Assembly (NCBI GenBank): GCA_025056255.1
Contig: JANWVT010000009.1
Location: 62,001-126,000, forward strand
From: Bernardetiaceae bacterium
GTDB lineage: Bacteria; Bacteroidota; Bacteroidia; Cytophagales; Thermoflexibacteraceae
Length of the DNA: 64,000 nt
Reading direction: 5' to 3'
Under the pieces are notes generated by a model. That model saw nothing but the letters and a program-made list of their open reading frames with translations. It did no database searches and had not been told where the DNA came from. The position numbers and the translations under genes were made by a program. Position 1 is the stretch's first letter. The number at the start of each line of letters is the position of its first letter. This document shows positions 9,612-59,705 of the stretch, in pieces.

Positions 9612-9740
9612 GTAATTGCGCAAATCTACCGCAGCGTGTGCCCAAGAAGCATTTGAGGACAACAGTTAAGTAATGTTACAAAATACTATGCCGTAGTGTA
9701 TGTCCACACACAGCAAGTGGTTTCTTGTGAGCACGAACAG

Positions 9741-9776
9741 CGGCGCGTGCAACGGCGCGTGCAACGGCGCGTGCAA
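9741..9776 (+). repeat. Three perfect tandem copies of a 12-base unit
   Basis: cggcgcgtgcaa is repeated three times without change (9741-9752, 9753-9764, 9765-9776) in the 237 bp gap between the convergent ends of alaS and the LOG-family gene. The unit is far more GC-rich than its surroundings and contains gcgc. A single similar string, gcgcgtgcaa, occurs inside the dispersed repeat copy near 12.0 kb, so this may be a relic of that family. Confidence 0.9.
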
Positions 9777-11774: not shown

Positions 11775-11928
11775 AAAAATTTTTTCAAGTTAGACAAACG
11801 CTCAGTTAATGGGTTTAACACCTGAACATTTATAAAAAGTATTACGAGCAAAAAACAGTTGGCAAAAGGTAGGGAGCAATCGAGTTTTCTCCTTACGAAG
11901 GAACAACGGCTGTTTTGATGTTTAGCTT

Positions 11929-12173
11929 TAGTGGTTGTTTAGGTTTTTTCTACGGTCAATTTTGCCAAATTCTTGTTCATGCAGGCAAATTTGTCGTTGT
12001 TTGCGTCCACACCCTTACTGCGCGTGCAAAGGCATGCAACAGCAAAAAAATTTTGGCGTATAGCAGGGAAAATTCCGAAATCCAAACTCTCATAGCGAGG
12101 CTGTTTTTCTGCTACAAAATCCTGTCCATCCTGTCTAAATTAACGTTTGCCCCTGTAAAGTCTAAACATGCTC
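11929..12173 (+). repeat. Dispersed intergenic repeat, copy A (blocks 1, 2, 3, 5)
   Basis: This fills much of the 606 bp gap between the serine hydrolase start and the atpG end. Block 1 starts with tagtggttgtttaggttttt and contains tcaattttgccaaatt and ttcatgcaggcaaa. Block 2 has gcgcgtgcaaaggcatgcaa and gggaaaattccgaaatcc. Block 3 has gcgaggctgtttttctgcta followed by aaaatcctgtccatcctgtc. Block 5 is cctgtaaagtctaaacatgc. The same blocks in the same order are found near 59.1 kb on the other strand, and subsets at 27.3, 29.2, 35.3 and 56.2 kb. A 95-codon frame over this copy (11915-12202) is not called as a gene, because the other copies have no matching frame. The rest of the gap shows nothing else except the atp terminator. 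Confidence 0.8.
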
Positions 12174-12308
12174 TTACAAGCACATGTTGTTTGCTTGGGT
12201 GAAATGTTATAAGCACCTCTTACAGCTTTAATCTATAAATTGCGAGCAGCCTATCTGTTGCTCTGGGAGTAGTACATGAAGCTGGTCAATAGCGATTGGT
12301 TACTCATT

Positions 12309-24840: not shown

Positions 24841-26904
24841 TTAATTCTCAACAGGAATGAAGAAGAACTCTCCTTCGGGGTCGCCACTACTATGGTCAAA
24901 GGTTTCGCAGTGCGGTTGAGGAACAAGATTTTGCATGCCAATGCGGATGTCTTGAATGGTGAGCATGCCCCCTCTGAACCTTCCTTTGCTTTTGAGTAAA
25001 TCTAACAAAGTGGCGGCAAAAGGCGAATGCTTACCCGGCTCGCCGTCAGGTACGTATTCTTTACCCCCAGAGGTGAGGTATTTACGCGTTTTCAATTGCA
25101 TTTTGCTTGCCACCATTTCATACATCGAAAGCGTGTTTTCATCGCCGCGCCATGCTATTTTTGAAGAGATAGTGCCACTAAAACAAGCATCGATTATCAG
25201 TAATATATGGCGGCACGTAGAAAGATCTAAGGTAGTTCTGATAAATTCGTGAGACACCCATGTGTTGCCTTGCAAGTCTGCTCGCGAGGGCAACCCATTA
25301 GCAGGAATGATAAACCCTTTTTTGAGGTGTTCATGAAAGTAGCCATGCCCAGCAATAAATACCAGCAACTGGTCATTATAATTGTAAGACCGACTGGCGC
25401 ATTGTTTGAGCTTGTATTCAATATCGGCTTTACTGGCAGGATTGAGCAACATTTCTACCTTGAAGCCATAGTTTTTTTCCAATATTTCGGCAAGCGCTTT
25501 GGCATCGTACACAGGGTTGCTAAGATTAGACCAATATCCGTATTGGTCGGTAGCAATAATCAGTGCATAGTTATTGCCAAGTAGGCGGCGGGCATTGTAT
25601 TTATCTGCTATTGGCGAGGGCAATCCACCAGTGGCAAAATAGCTGTAAGAACGTTCCGTAGTATTATTGGCAGCATCTTTAGCAATCAGCTGTATCACGT
25701 TTTTGCCGTATTCTTTTACAGGAATAGTTGCCGTAAACCACAATCGCCTACCAGTAGAATCTATGGAAGTCAGCTTGGCAAAAATGGTGTTTATCTGTAC
25801 TTCGCGAACACCACTAGGGTCTTCTACTATGCCCACAATAGTAACCGTATTGTTGTAAGCATATACATTACTCAACCCTCTGCTGTTTTCTTCGGTCAGT
25901 TGCGGACTAATAATAGTTACTACTGGTCCTTGAAAATCGTTAGCAGATATAAACCTTTTTCTGCGAACGTTTAGCAGATTCAAGTTTTCTTTAGCAGGAG
26001 AGTTTAAATCTATCTGAATAGCTGTTTTGAAATCTTGCTCGGCTTCATCGAAAAGTCCTGTCTCTGTTTTGGCGATACCGCGCTGATTGAGCGTCCAAGC
26101 ATCTTTGGTATTGATTTTGAGCGATTGGTCAAAATCTTGTATGGCGCCTGCATAATCTTTCATGCGAATGCGCGCCGTGCCGCGCAAATCATAGGCTTCC
26201 TTGAGTAGATTTTTTTCGACATGATTGAGCTGTATTACCTGAGTGCATTTTTGTTCGCACTCGGCGTATTTGGACTGCTCAGCCAGTGCACGCGCCTCGC
26301 TCAGCATTCGTTGCGCATCTGAAATACCATATTCTCGCTGCTGATGACCATTTGGGCCATTACCCAACGGGAAAGGAGAAGTTGGCAGGTTGTTAGGGTT
26401 GGATTTCTTAATGGCTACCTCTAATGCAACTGCTTCTTCGGCACATTCCTTAGCTTTTTCATGGTTACCCATGGAACGGTAACAGTCACTAATGCGTTTC
26501 AAGGGCTCTATCCTGAGGCTATCGCTGTTTTTTCGCTGTTGTACTTGTGCAAGCTCTTTGTAAAAGTCTCGGATAGCCATTTCATAGTATCCCAAAGATT
26601 GATGTGCTAATCCACGATAATAATGTGCCTTCTCATAGGTGGGGCTAATGCTTATTAAGCGGTTAAAATCATTAATAGCCTCTTTAAATTTTCCTAATTT
26701 TAAGAATGCATCGCCACGCCTGAAAAGCAGAAGAGGCACCTCTTGCTTGGATTGGTTCAAGTATTTGTTATAATAACCAATAGCAGAGTGGTAATCTCTA
26801 TTCCGATACGCCTCGTTGCCTTTTTCAAAATCGTTTCTTTGGGCGGTGGTTAAGCGTGCAAAAAGACATAGGCTGACAGCAAGTATAATGCAAATGAACT
26901 TCAT
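24841..26904 (-). CDS. Exported TPR protein with C-terminal caspase-like (C14) domain
   Basis: 687 residues. A signal peptide (MKFICIILAVSLCLFARLTTAQ) is followed by TPR units (about 25-140 and 215-310), an Ig-like segment (about 325-430, PVVTIISPQLTEE ... GIVEDPSGVREVQIN) and a caspase-fold domain (about 440-680). The catalytic His is in FIAGHGYFHE and the Cys in LLIIDACFSG, both intact. Caspase-like proteases of bacteria cut after basic or acidic residues in signalling, stress or defence. The signal peptide places this one outside the cytoplasm, unlike most defence caspases. No partner gene is evident beside it. Confidence 0.88.
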   Translation of the reverse strand: MKFICIILAVSLCLFARLTTAQRNDFEKGNEAYRNRDYHSAIGYYNKYLNQSKQEVPLLLFRRGDAFLKLGKFKEAINDFNRLISISPTYEKAHYYRGLAHQSLGYYEMAIRDFYKELAQVQQRKNSDSLRIEPLKRISDCYRSMGNHEKAKECAEEAVALEVAIKKSNPNNLPTSPFPLGNGPNGHQQREYGISDAQRMLSEARALAEQSKYAECEQKCTQVIQLNHVEKNLLKEAYDLRGTARIRMKDYAGAIQDFDQSLKINTKDAWTLNQRGIAKTETGLFDEAEQDFKTAIQIDLNSPAKENLNLLNVRRKRFISANDFQGPVVTIISPQLTEENSRGLSNVYAYNNTVTIVGIVEDPSGVREVQINTIFAKLTSIDSTGRRLWFTATIPVKEYGKNVIQLIAKDAANNTTERSYSYFATGGLPSPIADKYNARRLLGNNYALIIATDQYGYWSNLSNPVYDAKALAEILEKNYGFKVEMLLNPASKADIEYKLKQCASRSYNYNDQLLVFIAGHGYFHEHLKKGFIIPANGLPSRADLQGNTWVSHEFIRTTLDLSTCRHILLIIDACFSGTISSKIAWRGDENTLSMYEMVASKMQLKTRKYLTSGGKEYVPDGEPGKHSPFAATLLDLLKSKGRFRGGMLTIQDIRIGMQNLVPQPHCETFDHSSGDPEGEFFFIPVEN

Positions 26905-27190
26905 AGGGGTAAATTGGTTAGTTGTTAAGAACTACAAAGAGTTGATTAAGAGCAAAGCATTTGTTACCACTTTAAGCTAACATACATAGCTTACTCGCTC
27001 TTTGTAAGAAGCAGCCGCTAATTTGCAATAATAACAGTTGTCTGACAAAATTTTTAGTCCATTTACTTGCAAGAACAGAGCGATAAGAATATGCTCCTCT
27101 ATACACTGCTACTGTTATAACTAAGCAAGTTATGAACCATATGTGTGCAAATGCCAAAAATTAAATGATGCCTTGCTATTTATGGACTCT

Positions 27191-27408
27191 TACGCGCGTA
27201 GAGAGGCATGCAACGGCAAAAAGATTTGGGACTGTAGAAGGTAGAAAAATTCCAAAATTCAAAATCTTCAAATACAAACTTCTATACAATACAATGTAGC
27301 AAGGTTGTTTTTTTAGCTACACAATACTGAACCCTGTCCATCCTGCTATCATGTATAAGTAGTTGTTTAGGCTTTTATCCACCATGTTTGCACAACCTAA
27401 ACATGCTC
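27191..27408 (+). repeat. Dispersed intergenic repeat, copy B (blocks 2-5)
   Basis: Within the 828 bp gap between the caspase start and the Fur-type gene. Block 2 is seen as gcgcgtagagaggcatgcaa and gaaaaattccaaaattc; block 3 as gtagcaaggttgttttttta, with gctac closing the short inverted repeat, then ccctgtccatcctg. Block 4 is agtagttgtttaggctttta followed by tccacc, and block 5 is cctaaacatgct. Order and orientation match copy A. The rest of the gap (26905-27190 and 27409-27732) shows only short frames without recognisable products; a 68-codon frame at 27499-27705 is not called. Confidence 0.75.
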
Positions 27409-27732
27409 GAAATATCTTGTAGTGGGTGCTTGGCAGATAAAATACACAAGTGCAACTGTAAAGTTAGGACGATAGCAGCCTTCCAGCTGGTTAGTAGTTC
27501 ACAAGATTTTTTCTCTTACGCAAATTGATGTGACTGATGCAAGGAGATTTGTAGGAAAAGACAAAACAGAAGACCATCTTTTCTTGCTTGGTGTTTCACT
27601 TTCGCCTATAAGTAGCTGACTACCAAGCCAATCTTTTACAACTTGCCTTTCATTAAGAACATGCGAACAAAACGCATTTTTCAAAAATTCAAAGAGTAGA
27701 AACAAGCTGCATACTTAGCAATAGCACTTTTT

Positions 27733-29062: not shown

Positions 29063-29290
29063 GTATGTTTAGGCTTCACAGAGGCGAAAATGATGGATAA
29101 AAACCTAAATAACCACTTAGATAGGATAGCAAGACTAACAGGATTTCAGTATTGAGTAGCTGAAAAATAGCCTTGCTACACAGTAGTGCCTCATTGCCTT
29201 ACAACATAAACACCCACTAACACAAGTTATGCGGTTAAACATTTGAAAATTGGCACGCTGCTGTTGCACCTCACTATTGTTCGTGTTTTG
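29063..29290 (-). repeat. Dispersed intergenic repeat, copy E (partial block 2, blocks 3-5)
   Basis: In the 458 bp gap between the DUF1003 start and the histidine kinase end. Read on the minus strand: gtgcaacagcagcgtgcc (remnant of block 2), gtagcaaggctatttttcag then ctac (block 3 with the inverted repeat intact), aaatcctgttagtcttg, aagtggttatttaggttttt and atccatc (block 4), and gtgaagcctaaacatac (block 5). It is closest to copy B, but inverted with respect to it. No gene is supported in the gap. Confidence 0.72.
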
Positions 29291-29433
29291 CGCATATCTA
29301 CCTGTTGTATGAAAGGCACACGCTATGCATAAGCAAATCTTACATTGGCTCGGGCAACTCAACAGAGCTTTTACAGTAAAACAACAGGTTGCTTCAAGCC
29401 AAACTATTCCATTTGCACAAATATGCTATGCCA

Positions 29434-31209
29434 TTAGCTTTTTTTATCGGTCATTTTTATGTGTATTCGCCAAGTTGTTCCTTTTGCAAGGGTACTCTCC
29501 ACTGTCAATTCGGCGTGGTTTCGTATACACAAATCTTTGCACAACTGAATGCCTAGCCCGGTGCCTATCTCGCCGGCTGTGCCGCGATTGCTTATTCCAC
29601 CTTGTAAAATAGAGGTAAGTTTTTCAGGAGGGATACCCACGCCCGTATCTTGTACCGATAGTATGCAATAGGTACCTTGTATTTCTGAACTGATTGTAAC
29701 CTTGCCACCTGAGGGAGTGAATTTAATAGCGTTGTTAATCAGATTGCGGAGTACTGTTTGCAATTCGAGTCGATTGAAGCAAACCTCTATCTCAGGGGAC
29801 ACATGGTTGCATATTTGAATGCGTTTTTGTTGTGCAAACAGTACCAGTAAATCAATTGTAGTTTGTACTTCTTCAAAAAGAGCTACGTGGCAAACAGGAA
29901 CATCTTGTTTGTAGTCATTGGTTTTACTCCAAAGTAGCAAGTTATCCAAAGTTACCAGCAACTGAGTAACATTGTTGTGGATAGCTGGCAACAAGGTATA
30001 AAACTCTTCACCACTAATGTTACCGTTAAGCAGTAAATCTAGGAGGCTTTTGAGCGAGGTTACAGGGGCGCGCAAGTCGTGTCCAATAATGGCAAAAAGT
30101 TGCCTAAGGCGTTGGTTGAGTTGGTTGAGTTGCTCAGCTTGTTGCGCAATTTCAGTTTTCTGCTCCAATAGTTGTGCGTTTTTTGCTCGTAGCACAAGGG
30201 CTTCTCGTACCTTGTTTTCTTTTAGGCGATATAAGAATGCAATGGTGGTAAACGCTATTGACAAAACAGCAATGCCAATAAGCAAATAAAAATGGTAACG
30301 CGTTTCGCGGTAGCGTTGTTCATAGCGCAGTCGCTCTATTTCAAAGGTTTTAATGACGCTATCTTGCCGTAAGATTTCCAGTGCCATTTGGTTTTTGGTG
30401 AAGCGTTCATTCAAGTTGGCAATGGCTGAGTCTTGGGCAGTAAGTCGGCGAGTCGCACGGCTGAGCGCCTCCTCTTGCAGGCGCGCTTCCATCTGGGCAA
30501 TTTGCCTTTGTTCTTCTGCTCTGCGCAGTCGCTCTTGTTCACTTTCCAGTTCTTCACTTATTGCTTTGATTTGCAGGCTATTGAGCGTTTCTACGGCTTC
30601 TTTGTAGCGCTCAAAGTATTCTTGGGTTTTGTTCAGGTCGCCCATTTTTTCGTAGGTCTCTGCCAGCAGCCCGTAGCAGGTGCGCATCCGCTCTAAGTTG
30701 TTCTGGCTGCGGGCAAGCTCTAAGGCTTCCTGCAACACCTTCACCGACTCCTCGTAGCGTTTGAGCTTGTTGGTGACTACCGAAAGATTAATCAATGCCG
30801 AAATAACGGGCTCGCTGACTTGCTGCCGACGGCGCCCCTCTAACACTTTATTGAAGTAGTACACAGAAGAGTCGTACTGTTGCAAGTCGGCATGCAAAAA
30901 TGCCAAGTTGTTGTTTATCCCAAAAATGCCGCTCTGGTTGTCTACCAGCCGATTGAGCGCCAATGATTGGTGAAACAGGTCGATGGCTTTTTGAAACTCG
31001 CGGGCATCCCAGTAAATCAATGCAGACTTGTTGAGCAGGTCGCTTGCGCCGCGCCAGTCTTTGGCAGCCTTGCGCTGAGCAGATTCTTGCAAGTAAGCAG
31101 CAATTTTTGCCGAGTCGCGGGCAGTAAGATAATTTTGAGCATACAATTTACTTGGCAGCAAAAAAATAACACTGCTCACAATTAGTACCAACAGGCAAAA
31201 ACGATGCAT
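29434..31209 (-). CDS. TPR sensor histidine kinase
   Basis: 591 residues. Signal peptide, then TPR repeats (about 30-205, including EFQKAIDLFHQSLALNRL and RTCYGLLAETYEKMGDLNKT), a coiled coil (about 210-300), one membrane span (about 305-328), a second coil, a HisKA domain with the phospho-acceptor in AIIGHDLRAPVTS, and a HATPase domain with NLINNAIKF (N box), DTGVGIPPE (G1) and GTGLGIQLCKDL (G2). All catalytic boxes are intact. The TPR part probably lies in the periplasm. It is the last of three tandem minus-strand genes, 59 bp after the phosphatase gene, whose N-terminal half is almost the same. No response regulator is adjacent. Confidence 0.93.
   Translation of the reverse strand: MHRFCLLVLIVSSVIFLLPSKLYAQNYLTARDSAKIAAYLQESAQRKAAKDWRGASDLLNKSALIYWDAREFQKAIDLFHQSLALNRLVDNQSGIFGINNNLAFLHADLQQYDSSVYYFNKVLEGRRRQQVSEPVISALINLSVVTNKLKRYEESVKVLQEALELARSQNNLERMRTCYGLLAETYEKMGDLNKTQEYFERYKEAVETLNSLQIKAISEELESEQERLRRAEEQRQIAQMEARLQEEALSRATRRLTAQDSAIANLNERFTKNQMALEILRQDSVIKTFEIERLRYEQRYRETRYHFYLLIGIAVLSIAFTTIAFLYRLKENKVREALVLRAKNAQLLEQKTEIAQQAEQLNQLNQRLRQLFAIIGHDLRAPVTSLKSLLDLLLNGNISGEEFYTLLPAIHNNVTQLLVTLDNLLLWSKTNDYKQDVPVCHVALFEEVQTTIDLLVLFAQQKRIQICNHVSPEIEVCFNRLELQTVLRNLINNAIKFTPSGGKVTISSEIQGTYCILSVQDTGVGIPPEKLTSILQGGISNRGTAGEIGTGLGIQLCKDLCIRNHAELTVESTLAKGTTWRIHIKMTDKKS
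30604..31122 (-). repeat. Near-identical segment shared with 32601-33119 (left copy)
   Basis: The TPR-coding DNA of the kinase gene matches that of the phosphatase gene (offset 1997) over about 519 bp; I count about seven base differences by eye, mostly C/T. After a diverged stretch of about 100 bp, a second similar tract follows, 30345-30500 against about 32345-32498. Outside these tracts the two genes differ strongly. Confidence 0.9.
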
Positions 31210-31268
31210 GCATTAAAATACAAAAATATCGCGTACCACAGCAACTGATAAGTAGAAAACGATATGAT

Positions 31269-33194
31269 TCAGCCACAGGCAAATCCTACTACCATTACAT
31301 CATCTATTTGTGGGAAGTCGCCCTTCCACTGGCTAAAATGTTTTTGCAAAAACTCTTTTTGAGCTTCTATGGGTAAAGTATGTGCCTGCTGTAACAACGC
31401 TTTAAAATTCCCTGTGGAGAACTTCCGGTCTGTTAAACCTCCGAATTGGTCAGCAAATCCATCAGAGGCGAGATAAAAGTGAGTCTTTTTCGTCAAATGT
31501 AGGGAAAAGGTATTAAACTGATGTTTTATTTTAGGGTCATATCCACCGATAGGCCAGCGGTCTCCTTTGTAAATTTGCAGCATATCGCCTTGCTGAATGT
31601 AAATGAGACTCATTTTTGCTCCTGCGAATTCTATGCGTTGGTAGTGTCCGTTGCTACCGTAAAGTACACAAATACCAATATCCATACCATCGTGGTTGCC
31701 AAACTGCTGCTGATGTAAGGAATCGTTCAAACCTTCGTGCATTTTTTGTAAAATATCAGCAGGGTTGGTAACTTGTTGTTGGTTAATGATTTGATTAAGC
31801 AGTGCACTACCCAACATGCTCATAAAAGCACCGGGCACGCCGTGCCCCGTACAGTCTGCTGCCACAATAAAACACAAGGTTTCATGTTCTTGCCTGCGAA
31901 CGTTGAACCAGTAGAAATCACCGCCTACTACATCTCTGGGCTGATAAAAAACAAAATGTGGCGGCAATACTTCTATCACTTCTGGGGCAAACGATAGCAT
32001 TGCTCGTTGAATACCAGCCGCGTAGTTAATACTTTCGGAAATATCCTTGTTGCGTTTTTCTATTATTTGTTTTTGCAAATTGACTTGTTCAAGAGCTGCC
32101 GCTAACTCTTGGTTAGCTGCTTCCAAATCGGCACTGCGCTGACGAAGTTGTGCCCCCAGTACAGCGAGTTCTTCGTTTTTAGCTTGCAACAGGCGGTTTT
32201 CTCGCTCTTTGTTTTTTTCAATTCGATATAGGAAAGCAATTATCACTACAGCCATCAGCAGAACTGCTATGCTTATTGCTAACCAGAGATACAAACGATT
32301 TCGCTGTTCTTCCTTCTCGTAGTTTAACCGGTCTATTTCAAGTATTTTAATGACGCTATCTTGCCGTAAGATTTCCAGTGCCATTTGGTTTTTGGTGTAG
32401 CGTTCGTTCAAGTTGGCAATGGCTGAGTCTTGGGCAGTAAGGCGGTGGGTTGCACGGCTGAGCGCCTCCTCTCGCAGGCGCGCTTCCATCTGGGCAAGGC
32501 GACGAGCTTCTTCTATCTTCCGACGGGCTTCTTGCTCTTTGCTTAATTCCTCGCTCAAAGCAGAAAGCTGTGTTCTGTTAAGCATGTCTACTATTGACTT
32601 GTAGCGCTCAAAGTATTCTTGGGTTTTGTTCAGGTCGCCCATTTTTTCGTAGGTCTCTGCCAGCAGCCCGTAGCAGGTGCGCATCCGCTCTAAGTTGTTC
32701 TGGCTGCGGGCAAGCTCTAAGGCTTCCTGCAACACCTTTACCGACTCCTCGTAGCGTTTGAGCTTGTTAGTGACTACCGAAAGATTAATCAATGCCGAAA
32801 TAATAGGCTCGCTGACCTGCTGCCGACGGCGCCCCTCTAACACTTTATTGAAGTAGTACACAGAAGAGTCGTACTGTTGCAAGTCGGCATGCAAAAATGC
32901 CAAGTTGTTGTTTATCCCAAAAATGCCGCTCTGGTTATCTACCAGCCGATTGAGCGCCAATGATTGGTGAAACAGGTCGATGGCTTTTTGAAACTCGCGG
33001 GCATCCCAGTAAACCAATGCAGACTTGTTGAGCAGGTCGCTTGCGCCGCGCCAGTCTTTGGCAGCCTTGCGCTGAGCAGATTCTTGCAAGTAAGCAGCAA
33101 TTTTTGCCGAGTCGCGGGCAACCAAGTAACCTTGTGCCTGCAACGATGCACTGACAACAGAAGCGATGAAAAAAACTAACAGTAATCGCAACAC
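31269..33194 (-). CDS. TPR protein with SpoIIE-type PP2C phosphatase domain
   Basis: 641 residues. Signal peptide, TPR repeats and coiled coil as in the downstream kinase (residues about 25-205 almost identical), a membrane span at about 300-322, a coiled coil (about 330-390), then the SpoIIE/PP2C domain (about 400-640). Metal-binding motifs are DVVGGDFYWF, AADCTGHGVPGAFMSMLG and YLASDGFADQFGG. This domain removes phosphate from serine or threonine, classically on anti-sigma-factor antagonists. Input domain and topology are shared with the kinase, which suggests that one signal type drives two outputs. The stop of the upstream gene is 2 bp before its start. Confidence 0.93.
   Translation of the reverse strand: MLRLLLVFFIASVVSASLQAQGYLVARDSAKIAAYLQESAQRKAAKDWRGASDLLNKSALVYWDAREFQKAIDLFHQSLALNRLVDNQSGIFGINNNLAFLHADLQQYDSSVYYFNKVLEGRRRQQVSEPIISALINLSVVTNKLKRYEESVKVLQEALELARSQNNLERMRTCYGLLAETYEKMGDLNKTQEYFERYKSIVDMLNRTQLSALSEELSKEQEARRKIEEARRLAQMEARLREEALSRATHRLTAQDSAIANLNERYTKNQMALEILRQDSVIKILEIDRLNYEKEEQRNRLYLWLAISIAVLLMAVVIIAFLYRIEKNKERENRLLQAKNEELAVLGAQLRQRSADLEAANQELAAALEQVNLQKQIIEKRNKDISESINYAAGIQRAMLSFAPEVIEVLPPHFVFYQPRDVVGGDFYWFNVRRQEHETLCFIVAADCTGHGVPGAFMSMLGSALLNQIINQQQVTNPADILQKMHEGLNDSLHQQQFGNHDGMDIGICVLYGSNGHYQRIEFAGAKMSLIYIQQGDMLQIYKGDRWPIGGYDPKIKHQFNTFSLHLTKKTHFYLASDGFADQFGGLTDRKFSTGNFKALLQQAHTLPIEAQKEFLQKHFSQWKGDFPQIDDVMVVGFACG
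32601..33119 (-). repeat. Near-identical segment shared with 30604-31122 (right copy)
   Basis: Counterpart of the segment in the kinase gene. It covers the TPR region of the phosphatase gene, from just after the signal peptide to residue about 200. The sharp loss of similarity on both sides fits a recent duplication of the input part or gene conversion between neighbours. Confidence 0.9.
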
Positions 33195-33196
33195 TT

Positions 33197-34924
33197 TTAG
33201 AAATCGGCTGTTTGGAAACGAATTATTTCTTCGGTGCGGTTACCTACCACGTCCTCCACAAAAACCCTGATTTCGTAGGCTGTATTCTTTTTGAAGCCAC
33301 TAATAGGAGATTGATAAGGCACAGGCGGGGCACCATTGATAGAATAAAAAATATTCTGTGGCGAGGTGTCCTCGTCTTGCACGCTGAGGAAGAGTTTGGC
33401 ATAGGTAGGATATGTATTTTCGGCTATGGGTGCTACGCTAAAGCGATGTGCTATTTGTGGGCGGGTGCCATCTATCCAAAACTCGATGAAAACAGCATTA
33501 CGGTTGTTCACGTTGTCGTAGGCAATCAGCTCGAGGCGCTGTTTACCAATGCGCTCGGTAAGAGGTATCAATCCTGAGTAGGGCTGTTCTTCCGATTGGT
33601 CTTCAAAACGGTAAGCAATGCGCTGCAAACCCGACTCAGTGTCTACAGCGGTGATTTCCACGCTTGTTTGCTGACCGGTAAAGGTTTGTCGTGCTCGTTG
33701 GAAAGTTTTTCCTACGTACCTACTCCTAATAACCGGTCCGGTTAAGTCCACATAAACAGCACTGATGTTTTGGCGCACCTCGTCGAAGGCTTTGGTTTTA
33801 GAATCGGTCAGATACACGCCTGCGTTACCTATGTTGTCTTCGGCAAAATAGCGGACAATGTGCAAACCGGGCTTTTCAGGCATGTAAAATGGTTCTTCGT
33901 ATTTTTTTTGCTCGCCGTTATCAATAGAATAAAATACATTTTTCACGCCAGCTTTATTGTCCAAGGCAGTGAGTTTTAATTTGGTTCTACCCGAAAAATA
34001 CACTTGATTGCCTACAATGAATTTGTCGCCTAAAATATCTGCTGACATAATAGGCGCTGTACGGTCCATAAAAAAGCTAAAAGTTTGCTCCTCCTCCTGG
34101 TTGTTAACTTTATCAACAGAATAAAATGTGATGGTGTGTTCTCCTTCCGAAAGCTTTTCAATAGGCAACATTTGTCCGGGCTTATATATTTCCCATGCAT
34201 CATTGTCTATTTTATAAAGCGTTTTAGCTACCCCTACAATATTGTCCTCCATGAAAAAGTAAAAGCGCGTAGAAACGGAAACCACTTTGGTTTCAGAAAT
34301 ACCTGTTACTTGTAAACGAGTTTGCGGCGGGGTTACATCTACAACAAACTTTTCAGTAGTCACAGCAGAGCGATTGCCAACACGGTCTATGGCATAGTAA
34401 CTTATTTGGCGCTCTCCTTCTTGGTTAATAGCTACTGAGGCTGTATATACATTTTCTTGTCCTCCGTCCTGAGCAAGAAATACCTTTTCTACCCCCGACA
34501 TGTCGTCATTGCTTTGTAGCTCTACTATCAAATCTTTGCCATAGAAATGCGTTTTACCATCAAAAAATCGGTTGGGGGTGATATAGACTGATTTATTTTG
34601 AGGTGCTTTTCCATCGGCATGGATTATGTAAAAAAAAGTATTTTGAGGGTCTGTTGCATCTAAGTGCCGCAGATAATGAGTGCCGTGCCCATCGAGTTGG
34701 ATAGGAATGGTTTGCACCTGATTTTCATTGTTTTTTTTGCCAGAAAGTAATACGCCCGCGTCATCAGGTGAACTAGCAATACGGATGTACACTGGCAAGT
34801 TTAAACGGTGATAGTAGTTACCTGCTCCGTCTATATAAAATCCCTTTTCTGAACCACCATTTTGGGCAGCAACCAGATAGGGAAATATCAACAAAAATGC
34901 AAAGCCTATGTAAGAGCTTCTCAT
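33197..34924 (-). CDS. Secreted protein with OmpL47/Ig-like repeats
   Basis: 575 residues from the ATG ending at 34924, which gives a signal peptide (MRSSYIGFAFLLIFPYLVAAQ); the frame runs 49 codons further upstream without a signal. The body is a chain of about five similar units, each opening with a form of VDxTxP: VDVTPPQTR, MDRTAPIMS, VDLTGPVIR, IDGTRPQIA, with inner YYAIDRVGNRS, FYSVDKVNNQE, YFAEDNIGNAG and AYDNVNNRN motifs. This is the OmpL47-type beta-sandwich repeat found on surfaces and in the periplasm. It ends 2 bp before the phosphatase start, so the three genes form one unit; it could be the ligand-binding or surface part of the sensor pair (inference). Confidence 0.85.
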   Translation of the reverse strand: MRSSYIGFAFLLIFPYLVAAQNGGSEKGFYIDGAGNYYHRLNLPVYIRIASSPDDAGVLLSGKKNNENQVQTIPIQLDGHGTHYLRHLDATDPQNTFFYIIHADGKAPQNKSVYITPNRFFDGKTHFYGKDLIVELQSNDDMSGVEKVFLAQDGGQENVYTASVAINQEGERQISYYAIDRVGNRSAVTTEKFVVDVTPPQTRLQVTGISETKVVSVSTRFYFFMEDNIVGVAKTLYKIDNDAWEIYKPGQMLPIEKLSEGEHTITFYSVDKVNNQEEEQTFSFFMDRTAPIMSADILGDKFIVGNQVYFSGRTKLKLTALDNKAGVKNVFYSIDNGEQKKYEEPFYMPEKPGLHIVRYFAEDNIGNAGVYLTDSKTKAFDEVRQNISAVYVDLTGPVIRSRYVGKTFQRARQTFTGQQTSVEITAVDTESGLQRIAYRFEDQSEEQPYSGLIPLTERIGKQRLELIAYDNVNNRNAVFIEFWIDGTRPQIAHRFSVAPIAENTYPTYAKLFLSVQDEDTSPQNIFYSINGAPPVPYQSPISGFKKNTAYEIRVFVEDVVGNRTEEIIRFQTADF

Positions 34925-35238
34925 AATTAAAGTATTAGCTACTTCCCAAATATAAGTAAACACAATAATCGGTGACAAATTTTGACTGATAGAAAAAGCA
35001 AAATATGCGTATGTAGGCGTATAGCTACGCAAGTTAGCTTTGCTCGGACTAAGGTAATATTGGAGGTTCATTCTAACTTTTTTTCTTCAAACATCAACTA
35101 AACATAACTGCAATTGCAAAGTAAGTAAAAAAACAAGTTAAGAAGTTTTGATATTTTGCAACTTGGATGTTTGTTTAGGTGCACGTTCACTCCGATACAG
35201 CCATCCAAATAAATTTTTGATGCGCCAGTCAATTTTGG

Positions 35239-35440
35239 TAGCTGTTTGGGGTTTTGTAAGGTTCATTTTACCAAACTCATATTCATGAAGTCAACCCCGT
35301 CATTGTTCATGTTTTTACAATCAGCCCTAGCAAGTAAGGAAAAGGTTGTTTTTCAGCTAATAAACACTGTAATCCTTTTCATCCTTACATCTTACCTAAG
35401 TAGTGATTTGGTTTTTATCCATCCTTTTTGCCCGTAAAAT
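35239..35440 (+). repeat. Dispersed intergenic repeat, copy C (blocks 1, 3, 4, partial 5)
   Basis: Inside the 694 bp gap between the repeat-protein start (34924) and the TonB receptor end. Block 1: tagctgtttggggttttgta, gttcattttaccaaactc and attcatgaagtcaa. Block 2 is missing. Block 3: aaggttgtttttcagcta and taatccttttcatcctta. Block 4: agtagtgatttggtttttat and ccatcc. Block 5 is cut after cccgtaaaat. No gene is supported in the remainder of the gap. Confidence 0.72.
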
Positions 35441-56175: not shown

Positions 56176-56260
56176 GTGATGTGAAACGCCAACAACAGCG
56201 CTTGGCTTCATTAACATAAATTTGACAAAATTGACAGTACAACAGCCCAAACAACTACTC
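56176..56260 (-). repeat. Dispersed intergenic repeat, copy F (block 1 only)
   Basis: Read on the minus strand: gtagttgtttgggctgttgt, gtcaattttgtcaaattta, gttaatgaagccaagc and gttgttggcgtttcaca line up with block 1 of copies A, C and D (for example gtcaattttgccaaatt and ttcatgcaggcaaa in A). Blocks 2-5 are missing. It lies between the 43-residue gene and the rpsA terminator. Confidence 0.6.
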
Positions 56261-56320: not shown

Positions 56321-58114
56321 TCAAGATTGGTTTTTTTCTTCGCTGCGCGCTAAGTCCTCTTTGAGTTGCGAAAGTGCCTCTAAGTCGCCTAATGTTGCCC
56401 GACCGGAGTCTTCTTGCTTAGGCACATATTCTCCTTCGCTCTCTTTTTTAGACTTCTTCGCTGAGGTTTTAGCCTCTTCTTTATCTTTATACACATTAGT
56501 ATGCGAAAGCACGATTCGCTTTTCGTCTTTGGAGAATTCTAATACTTTGAAATCCAAGGTTTCTCCTACTTCGGCTTTGGTTCCGTCTTCTTTGGTTAAG
56601 TTTTTCAAAGCGCAAGTACCTTCCAATCCGTAAGGCAATTCGAGCACAGCATTTTTATCATTTTTGCTGATAATGGTGCAGCGGTGAATAGAGCCCGGCA
56701 CAAAAATGGTTTCAAAGGTATCCCACGGATTTTCTTCAAGTTGCTTGTGTCCTAAGGCTAAGCGACGCTGCTCTACATCTAACTCCAGCACCTGTACATC
56801 GAGCTTTTCACCTACTTTAATAAATTCAGAAGGATGCTTGATTTTCTTTGTCCAAGACAAGTCAGAAACGTGTACAAGTCCGTCTATACCTTCCTCTAAT
56901 TCAAGGAACAAGCCGAAGTTAGTCAAATTGCGCACAATACCGGTATGGCGCGTACCAACCGCATATTTAGTGGTGATGTCGGCTTTGGTCCATGGGTCTT
57001 CGGTGAGTTGTTTTACACCCAGCGACATTTTGCGTTCCTCACGGTCGAGTGTAAGCACCACTGCTTCAAGCTCGTCGCCAATTTTGATGAAGTCCTGAGG
57101 ATTGCGCAGGTGCTGCGACCAAGACATTTCTGATACGTGAATGAGTCCTTCTACACCCGGCATAATTTCGAGGAACGCACCGTAGTCGGCCACATTGACA
57201 ATCTTGCCTTTTACACGCGAACCCACTTGAATATCAGCAGGCAAGCTCTCCCACGGATGCGGGATGAGTTGCTTCATGCCCAAAGAAATGCGTTTTTTGT
57301 CTTCGTCGAAGTCCAGCACTACTACATTTACCTTTTGGTCTAAGCTGAGCACTTCTTCGGGATGGTTGATTCGTCCCCATGAAATATCGGTGATATGTAG
57401 CAAGCCATCCACGCCTCCCAAATCAATGAATACGCCAAAGTTGGTCATATTCTTGATAACACCTTCGAGTACTTGTCCTTTTTCGAGGTTGTTGAGAATT
57501 TCAGCGCGTTGCGATTCGAGGTCTTTTTCAATCAGCACTTTGTGAGAAACCACTACGTTGTCGTTGGCGTAGTTGATTTTCACCACCTTCACCTCCATTT
57601 TCTTGCCTACATAGATATCGAAGTCGCGAATAGGTTTTACGTCAATCTGTGAGCCGGGCAAGAATGCTTCTACGCCAAAAATATCTACAATCAGACCGCC
57701 TTTGGTACGCCGCTTTACAAGTCCTTCAATAACTAAGTCGTTTTGCAAGGCGTTTTCGATATTCTCCCATGCTTTTACAATCTTGGCTTTTTTGCGGGAG
57801 AGAATCAGTTGTCCATTCGTGTCTTCGGGGTTTTCCACGTACACATCCACGGTGTCGCCAATTTTCAAGTCAGGCATGTCGCGGAATTCAGACAAGGGTA
57901 CTAAGCCATCGGATTTGAAACCAATGTTCAATACCACATCGCGGTCAGTAATGCTTACTACCGTACCAGTAACTACTTCATTTTGTTTTATTTCGGAAAG
58001 CGTACCGGCATAAAGCTGTTCTAAGCGGCTCTTTTCTTCTTGTGAGTAGCCGCTGCCTAATTTGTTGGACGAGAAGCTGTCCCAGTCAAATTCTGTTACT
58101 TGTTCTTTGCTCAT
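56321..58114 (-). CDS. rpsA: 30S ribosomal protein S1
   Basis: 597 residues with six S1 (OB-fold) repeats from about residue 45 to 555. Clear repeats carry the blocks GVIKNMTNFGVFIDLGGVDG, GKIVNVADYGAFLEIMPGVEG and GIVRNLTNFGLFLELEEGIDG, each followed by a form of GLxHVSDLSW. The N-terminal part (FDWDSFSSNKLGSGYS) and the Lys/Glu-rich tail are usual for Bacteroidota S1. It brings mRNA to the 30S subunit, which matters in this phylum because Shine-Dalgarno sites are rare. A full promoter is seen upstream. Confidence 0.96.
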   Translation of the reverse strand: MSKEQVTEFDWDSFSSNKLGSGYSQEEKSRLEQLYAGTLSEIKQNEVVTGTVVSITDRDVVLNIGFKSDGLVPLSEFRDMPDLKIGDTVDVYVENPEDTNGQLILSRKKAKIVKAWENIENALQNDLVIEGLVKRRTKGGLIVDIFGVEAFLPGSQIDVKPIRDFDIYVGKKMEVKVVKINYANDNVVVSHKVLIEKDLESQRAEILNNLEKGQVLEGVIKNMTNFGVFIDLGGVDGLLHITDISWGRINHPEEVLSLDQKVNVVVLDFDEDKKRISLGMKQLIPHPWESLPADIQVGSRVKGKIVNVADYGAFLEIMPGVEGLIHVSEMSWSQHLRNPQDFIKIGDELEAVVLTLDREERKMSLGVKQLTEDPWTKADITTKYAVGTRHTGIVRNLTNFGLFLELEEGIDGLVHVSDLSWTKKIKHPSEFIKVGEKLDVQVLELDVEQRRLALGHKQLEENPWDTFETIFVPGSIHRCTIISKNDKNAVLELPYGLEGTCALKNLTKEDGTKAEVGETLDFKVLEFSKDEKRIVLSHTNVYKDKEEAKTSAKKSKKESEGEYVPKQEDSGRATLGDLEALSQLKEDLARSEEKNQS

Positions 58115-58935: not shown

Positions 58936-58981
58936 AGGCATGTAGGGCATAGTTGAATTTCCACAGTAGTAATGGTGCCTT

Positions 58982-59246
58982 TAGCGCTTTACAGGGGCAA
59001 ACGTTATAACCTAAACAATGCGCGACGGCAGGATTGACAGGATTTGTAGCTGAAAAACAGCCTCGCTACATGAGTTTGGATTGGGGATTGCGGATTTTGG
59101 AATTTTCCTACTGCTACACCCGAAATTGTTTCGCTGTTGCACGCCTCTCCACGCGCGGTAAGGGCAAGATACGCACAACAGCAAGTTTGCTTTCATGAAT
59201 TATAAATTTGGCAAAACGAACCTTACAAAAAACCAAATAGCCACTA
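58982..59246 (-). repeat. Dispersed intergenic repeat, copy D (blocks 1, 2, 3, 5)
   Basis: It fills almost the whole 308 bp gap between the converging ends of the CpeT-like and NosL-like genes. Read on the minus strand: tagtggctatttggtttttt and gttttgccaaatttataatt (block 1), gcgcgtggagaggcgtgcaa and aggaaaattccaaaatcc (block 2), gtagcgaggctgtttttcag then ctac, and aaatcctgtcaatcctg (block 3), gcattgtttaggtt (remnant of block 4), cctgtaaagcgctaaa (block 5). It is the best counterpart of copy A and lies in the opposite orientation. Its first bases include the TAG stop of the NosL-like gene. Confidence 0.8.
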
Positions 59247-59705
59247 ATGTTGCGAGTGTATGCTCAAATGCTTAATAACAGTTTCATTAACCTGTTGGAA
59301 TGTAAGTATTCTTTTGCCCTGATGTTCTTGCATAAACTCCTCAGCAGCTTGTGGAGTAGCAACAGGCACTAGGTCATGTCCCATTGGTCCAATCACGTCA
59401 CTCCCGATAATGTAGAATGCTTGCCTGCCATCAATCCACTGTTGTTCGTAGTAGTCAGTAACCAATACGCTGTCTGTAGCTGCCAATCCCTGTGCTTGGC
59501 TGTTAATAAACAAGCATCGCGGAGAACAAAAATGTTTTACCGCATTGCTACTGATAATTTTACTGCGCCATGCTTGAAACTCTTCGGTAGGCATTCCACA
59601 TTGTGCACAGCGAGTATTGGTGTTGCTATTGTCGCTGTTTGGGTTGCTACATGCAACCACTCCTGAAAAGGTAAGTATCAAGAAAAGGCGAAAACAGGCT
59701 TTCAT
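59244..59705 (-). CDS. NosL-like lipoprotein
   Basis: 153 residues with a lipoprotein signal (LILTFSGVVAC). TRCAQCGMPTEEFQAWRSKI and HFCSPRCLFINSQ give the CxxCGM and CxxxC sites of NosL-type copper proteins (PF05573); the YEQQWIDGRQAFYIIGSDVIGPMGHDLVP block also fits. NosL delivers copper to nitrous oxide reductase, but relatives occur outside nos operons, as here. The gene starts 4 bp inside the end of the thioredoxin gene. Together they suggest a copper or thiol-handling pair in the periplasm. Confidence 0.88.
   Translation of the reverse strand: MKACFRLFLILTFSGVVACSNPNSDNSNTNTRCAQCGMPTEEFQAWRSKIISSNAVKHFCSPRCLFINSQAQGLAATDSVLVTDYYEQQWIDGRQAFYIIGSDVIGPMGHDLVPVATPQAAEEFMQEHQGKRILTFQQVNETVIKHLSIHSQH

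Follow-up and report, generated by a model that had tools for sequence, protein, structure and literature searches.

Prokaryotic MITEs are typically shorter than 500 bp and mostly derived from an IS. They carry a terminal inverted repeat (TIR), have target duplications that fade with age and prefer intergenic positions (PMC10969869). Families with 40-90 copies, many of them truncated, are known (PMC10969869), and a MITE family of Coxiella was found mainly in 3' untranslated regions (PMC5896051). In the IS1031 group of IS5, a three-nucleotide target was described as common (PMC2516522). The PIF/Harbinger elements of eukaryotes, which are related to IS5, as a rule duplicate TWA (PMC4482050).

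The degenerate intergenic repeats of a Bernardetiaceae genome described here are, with a probability of about 0.93, a new MITE family that descends from IS5 and appears to be inactive. The family shares with Chunjie (Geobacter), QMITE1/2 (Coxiella), BrickBuilt (Porphyromonas) and MITEAba12 a size below 500 bp, the TIR, fading duplications, the intergenic location and tens of copies, a large share of them truncated (PMC10969869). It differs from them in sequence, in the IS5-type source and in that no parent was detected in the home genome. The IS982-derived MITE of Cardinium, also a member of the Bacteroidota, likewise represents a miniature IS derivative that expanded in one lineage. Cardinium has intact parental IS982 copies, whereas the present family is of IS5 type and old (PMC9769881). 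The 3-bp target fits the three-nucleotide site reported for IS1031-like IS5 members (PMC2516522). The TWA duplication is also found in Tourist/PIF-Harbinger MITEs (PMC4482050). The transposases of the latter are distant kin of IS5, but these MITEs are eukaryotic and no direct relation is claimed. A limited word search of the literature found no report of such a family in Bernardetiaceae, which is weak evidence of absence.

Copies in the window and across genomes

Complete copies have the layout LEFT - (MID2 and/or MID1) - RIGHT. Six related sites had been reported by the initial annotation in the window, which is the whole analysed stretch of 64,000 nucleotides. They were aligned to a consensus built from genome-wide copies, and all six match one element in the orientations reported. 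Real copies score 40-160. After shuffling of the window, right-module scores peaked at 33 and all left-module matches stayed below 32. The first copy is complete and of the MID2 type (11931-12173, +). It extends from the G of GTGGTTGTTTAGG to the final base of CTAAACATGCTC, and the model match at 11930-12176 covers model positions 2-308. It has the best-kept target duplication of the window, with TTA on the left (11928-11930) and TTA on the right (12174-12176). A nearly complete MID2-type copy is located at 58981-59244 (-), with the model match at 58981-59245 covering model positions 2-298. The short MID1-type copy at 35238-35439 (+, model 3-292) has a decayed right terminus. Left parts are missing from the copy at 27185-27408 (+, model match 27185-27409, model 88-306), which has an intact right end CCTAAACATGCTC, and the left block is missing from the copy at 29064-29300 (-, model 103-302). 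A fragment consisting of the LEFT block only (56186-56259, -, model 2-77) adjoins the 3' end of rpsA (56321-58114, -). A probable seventh fragment, with a weak match (model 62-133, E=2e-4), lies at 9679-9746 (-). The copies had been described as block-structured, each keeping different blocks. They do differ in this way, but not through free shuffling of blocks: both true ends are kept in most copies, and internal deletions and decay account for the differences.

The most conserved stretch, GTAGCNRGGCTGTTTTTC, matched the genome 40 times with up to two mismatches, versus 2 matches with the pattern reversed. As proposed with the initial annotation, the genome and its relatives were searched with a model. 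The covariance model R1 represents the right module and was built from 23 copies. At a threshold of E<=0.01, it matched 83 places on many contigs of the 3.39-Mb genome (best 9e-28). Further copies without the right module were found in other searches, therefore the total is about 90. When a whole-element profile HMM was run on the fetched stretches, it detected 87 elements, versus 0 after reversal of the sequence. Right-end-only matches on five contigs (C18, C23, C14, C20 and C63) were resolved into three further copies with a left end and two isolated ends. The family thus withstood the refutation put forward at the outset, that is, a search without further copies or scores no better than those of shuffled DNA. 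The repeats explain about 0.6% of the genome sequence, which is otherwise blank in the annotation, and the MITE model can be used for masking and annotation.

Full-length copies have a mean pairwise identity of about 70% and a maximum of 94%. For 12 of 40 copies, the most similar partner was located on the same contig, versus 2.9 expected (p=0.0002). This points to local spread; local duplication or gene conversion would give the same picture.

The search covered 38 other genomes from the genus, the family and the order, and 36 were free of the element at E<=0.01. R1-type matches in the remaining two comprised five weak ones in the same-genus genome G001 and one doubtful match in G005. The latter (L062) was dropped due to unconvincing element ends. 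The same-genus genomes G002 and G003 had no element match. The gene order around the copy at 58981-59245 is kept in G001 and G003; in G002, these genes are apart. The orthologous spacer measures about 120 bp in G001; in G003, it is about 330 bp long and holds an additional small open frame. Both are element-free and too diverged for an exact-site alignment. Around the copies at 24.8-38.5 kb, the relatives show no synteny of the neighbouring genes, so the other window copies were not comparable.

Element ends and IS5 transposase remnants

The element starts with GTRGTTGTTTAGG (GTRGTTGTTTAGGTTTTTGTAAGG) and ends with CCTAAACATGCTC (CCTGTAAAACCTAAACATGCTC). These ends are sharp, and the left end was mapped in 57 copies and the right end in 63. 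Both the TIR and the target duplications that the initial annotation had suggested looking for were found. Read from the aligned ends, the TIR is imperfect, GTRGTTGTTTAGGTTTT / GAGCATGTTTAGGTTTT, around TGTTTAGGTTTT read inwards. T-A/T-A triplets border the element on both outer sides. Both triplets have A or T as their central base in 36 end-mapped copies; this base is the same on the two sides in 26 of them and not in the other 10 (Fisher p=0.008), as expected from a decayed 3-bp TWA target duplication. The duplications are eroded in many copies.

The interior is present in a MID2 version or a MID1 version, and few copies score for both. A short CGTTGTTCGTGTCC-like direct repeat was seen by eye at the point where the versions part. 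It suggests that both versions arose from a longer ancestor by internal deletion. No known sequence accounts for the interior, meaning MID1, MID2 and most of RIGHT.

G001 is a sister Bernardetiaceae genome (MAG SKYG34). Its weak matches have only the right ~45 bp in common with the element and adjoin stop-containing frames similar to DDE transposases. A consensus was made by hand from these remnant frames and served as transposase query. It matched DDE_Tnp_1 of Pfam (1.4e-8) and had 26 matches in G001, mostly broken. The MITE model was run on 20 of the remnant loci, including their surroundings. Of these loci, 14 have MITE ends next to the remnant, 12 of them at E<0.05. The geometry is fixed, with the MITE right end (264-308) located 5' of the remnant and/or the left end (1-64) located 3' of it, on the opposite strand in every case. 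The same scan of the reversed G001 loci yielded zero matches. MITE and relics have about 60 bp in common at one end and about 45 bp at the other. The ends of the family are therefore the ends of an IS5-type element. In G001 (loci L158-L177), the roughly 26 matches are to a shortened IS5 transposase with many stops, and the N-terminal part seems to be absent throughout. A transposase-bearing MITE (type I) may itself have proliferated in this genome.

Intact IS5 loci are present in G004 (L130) and G015 (L128). Each encodes an uninterrupted transposase of about 263 aa that exceeds the NCBIfam cut-off for the IS5 family (NF033580). The elements of G004, a member of another genus of the family, end in TTAGAGCGTGTTTAG / TAAGAGTATGTTTAG, and the MITE right end is TAAGAGCATGTTTAG. 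The terminal GAGCGTGTTTAG of the intact G004 element is one base off that of the MITE, a near-identical 12-mer, and its targets are TWA. The likeness to IS5-family IS thus comprises the GAGCRTGTTTAG-type terminal repeat of G004, the short AT-rich TWA target and both ends shared with the G001 relics. Unlike these IS, the MITE has an interior unrelated to IS5 and carries no transposase gene: the 36 strictly end-complete copies, 196-340 bp long with a median of 262 bp, are too short to hold one.

An intact IS5 transposase of the kind that fits the MITE was not detected in its own genome. The element is therefore a derivative and not an IS, and its mobility is historical, given that the genome yielded no functional transposase. 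Two weak DDE_Tnp_1 matches in the genome (L114 and L115) were below the cut-off. Neither is bordered by MITE ends, and both were rejected as source transposase. L115 overlaps a long ORF that presumably encodes an RNA methyltransferase.

The initial annotation had considered a non-autonomous element, and this proposal gained support from the fixed ends with their imperfect TIR, the TWA duplications, the dispersed copies and the IS5 relics flanked by the same ends in the sister genome. The repeats are shorter than 500 bp, numerous and without a transposase gene, and have TIR and target duplications like a MITE; their ends are those found around the IS5 transposase relics of G001 and nearly match those of the intact G004 element. 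Evidence against the MITE reading is the identity of only about 70% and the many duplications that are decayed or, in 10 of 36 copies, discordant, as well as the missing transposase and the unexplained interior. An IS5-type transposase, once present in the lineage and now lost or undetectable, would have recognised the ends in trans. In a cut-and-paste reaction, the element would have been excised and joined to TWA sites. A 3-bp staggered cut at TWA followed by repair would leave the duplications. Copies would later have decayed through point mutation and internal deletion, and the survivors would be mostly intergenic or at gene 3' ends after selection had purged insertions in coding regions and promoters. 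The family is a MITE expansion with a parent transposase that is undetectable in the host and traceable in a sister genome. Non-autonomous elements can outlive their source.

Genomic context and alternative explanations

The counts of gene context refer to the fetched stretches, in which genes were called by a custom program that misses some short ones. A gene was called on each side of 86 copies, and their spacers were convergent in 39, tandem in 40 and divergent in 7 cases. The convergent excess over divergent spacers (binomial p=1.8e-6) is a strong bias because chromosomes have roughly equal numbers of both pairs. Copies had been described as never located in a purely divergent spacer; this is true within the window and does not extend to the genome, where the seven divergent cases occur. 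An overlap with a called gene of more than 60 bp was observed for one copy only. Within tandem spacers, there was no orientation preference relative to the genes (21 same, 19 opposite).

At 8 of the 57 mapped left ends and at three or four of the 63 mapped right ends, the junction coincides with the stop codon of a neighbouring gene. The stop is a TAA taken whole from the target, or else a TAG composed of the target TA and the terminal G of the element. The first base of the copy at 58981-59245 is the G of the TAG stop of gene 59244-59705 (-), and this gene has a length near that of its relatives. The coincidence of stop codons and junctions is an observation rather than a proven preference. 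The convergent excess is most simply explained by selection against insertions in coding regions and promoters, together with TWA targeting. Selection as the cause of the 3' bias is our inference.

MITE copies may since have been adopted by the host as two-way terminators or as mRNA 3'-end elements in convergent spacers. Such a take-over would agree with the 39:7 ratio, with the stop codons at about a dozen junctions and with the existence of 3'-UTR MITEs, for example QMITE2 of Coxiella (PMC5896051). We consider it unlikely: selection against promoter disruption yields an identical bias, any block may be lost, copies differ by about 30%, an orientation bias is absent, and the alignments show no conserved hairpin plus U-tract. 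Given the absent orientation bias, the 3' regulatory element of the initial annotation is not needed as a reading of the family; a role for single copies may exist. A variant makes the 3' placement intrinsic. The IS5-type machinery might have preferred TWA at stop codons and in convergent spacers, the ends might supply in-frame stops, and some copies might now act as 3'-end or termination signals. Its chances appear similarly low.

A structured RNA family conserved for its fold, such as a 3'-UTR RNA or a small RNA, is less probable still. Short stems are present, with GGYTG/CAGCT in RIGHT and a MID1 hairpin possible by eye, and the folding z-scores lie a little below zero (-1.0 and -1.4). These z-scores are weak, about one standard deviation below shuffles, and similar on both strands. 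RNAalifold predicted a 5-bp hairpin in RIGHT without compensatory changes and no structure in the left part; covarying base pairs changed on both sides were found in neither. Rfam gave no match. The element is missing from G002 and G003 of the same genus and from nearly all other relatives, and there is no strand preference relative to genes. The widespread structured RNA proposed initially was therefore abandoned. As a caution, degenerate block-structured intergenic repeats may mimic structured RNAs. REP/BIME-like palindromes spread by a RAYT (TnpA-REP), or single-strand IS200/IS605 derivatives, would also produce many intergenic copies with imperfect palindromic segments. This origin has next to no probability, as the units are 200-340 bp long, have transposon-type ends that match the IS5 relics and are flanked by a 3-bp duplication. 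Single-strand transposition is not known to make such a duplication. An origin from tRNA was dismissed, with no tRNA genes within the window.

Further observations in the window and genomes

A GCACGCTGCCGTTGCACGCTGCCGTTG-like short motif recurs intergenically in G001 (L172, 373-868) and in the own genome (L025 on contig C30, from 1611). It resembles part of the LEFT/MID1 blocks of the element and is possibly a second small repeat family. In the window, blocks of 186 and 300 nt are repeated within 30332-32874 with 90-95% identity and a spacing of 1997 nt. They are located in the neighbour genes 29434-31209, coding for a sensor histidine kinase, and 31269-33194 (-). They may stem from gene conversion or from a gene that was duplicated in tandem recently. 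The TPR protein encoded at 24841-26904 has a C-terminal match to a caspase-like domain (EACC1-associated type), which is below the curated cut-off. The protein encoded at 33197-35071 has four matches to OmpL47-type beta-barrel domains, far above the NCBIfam cut-off.
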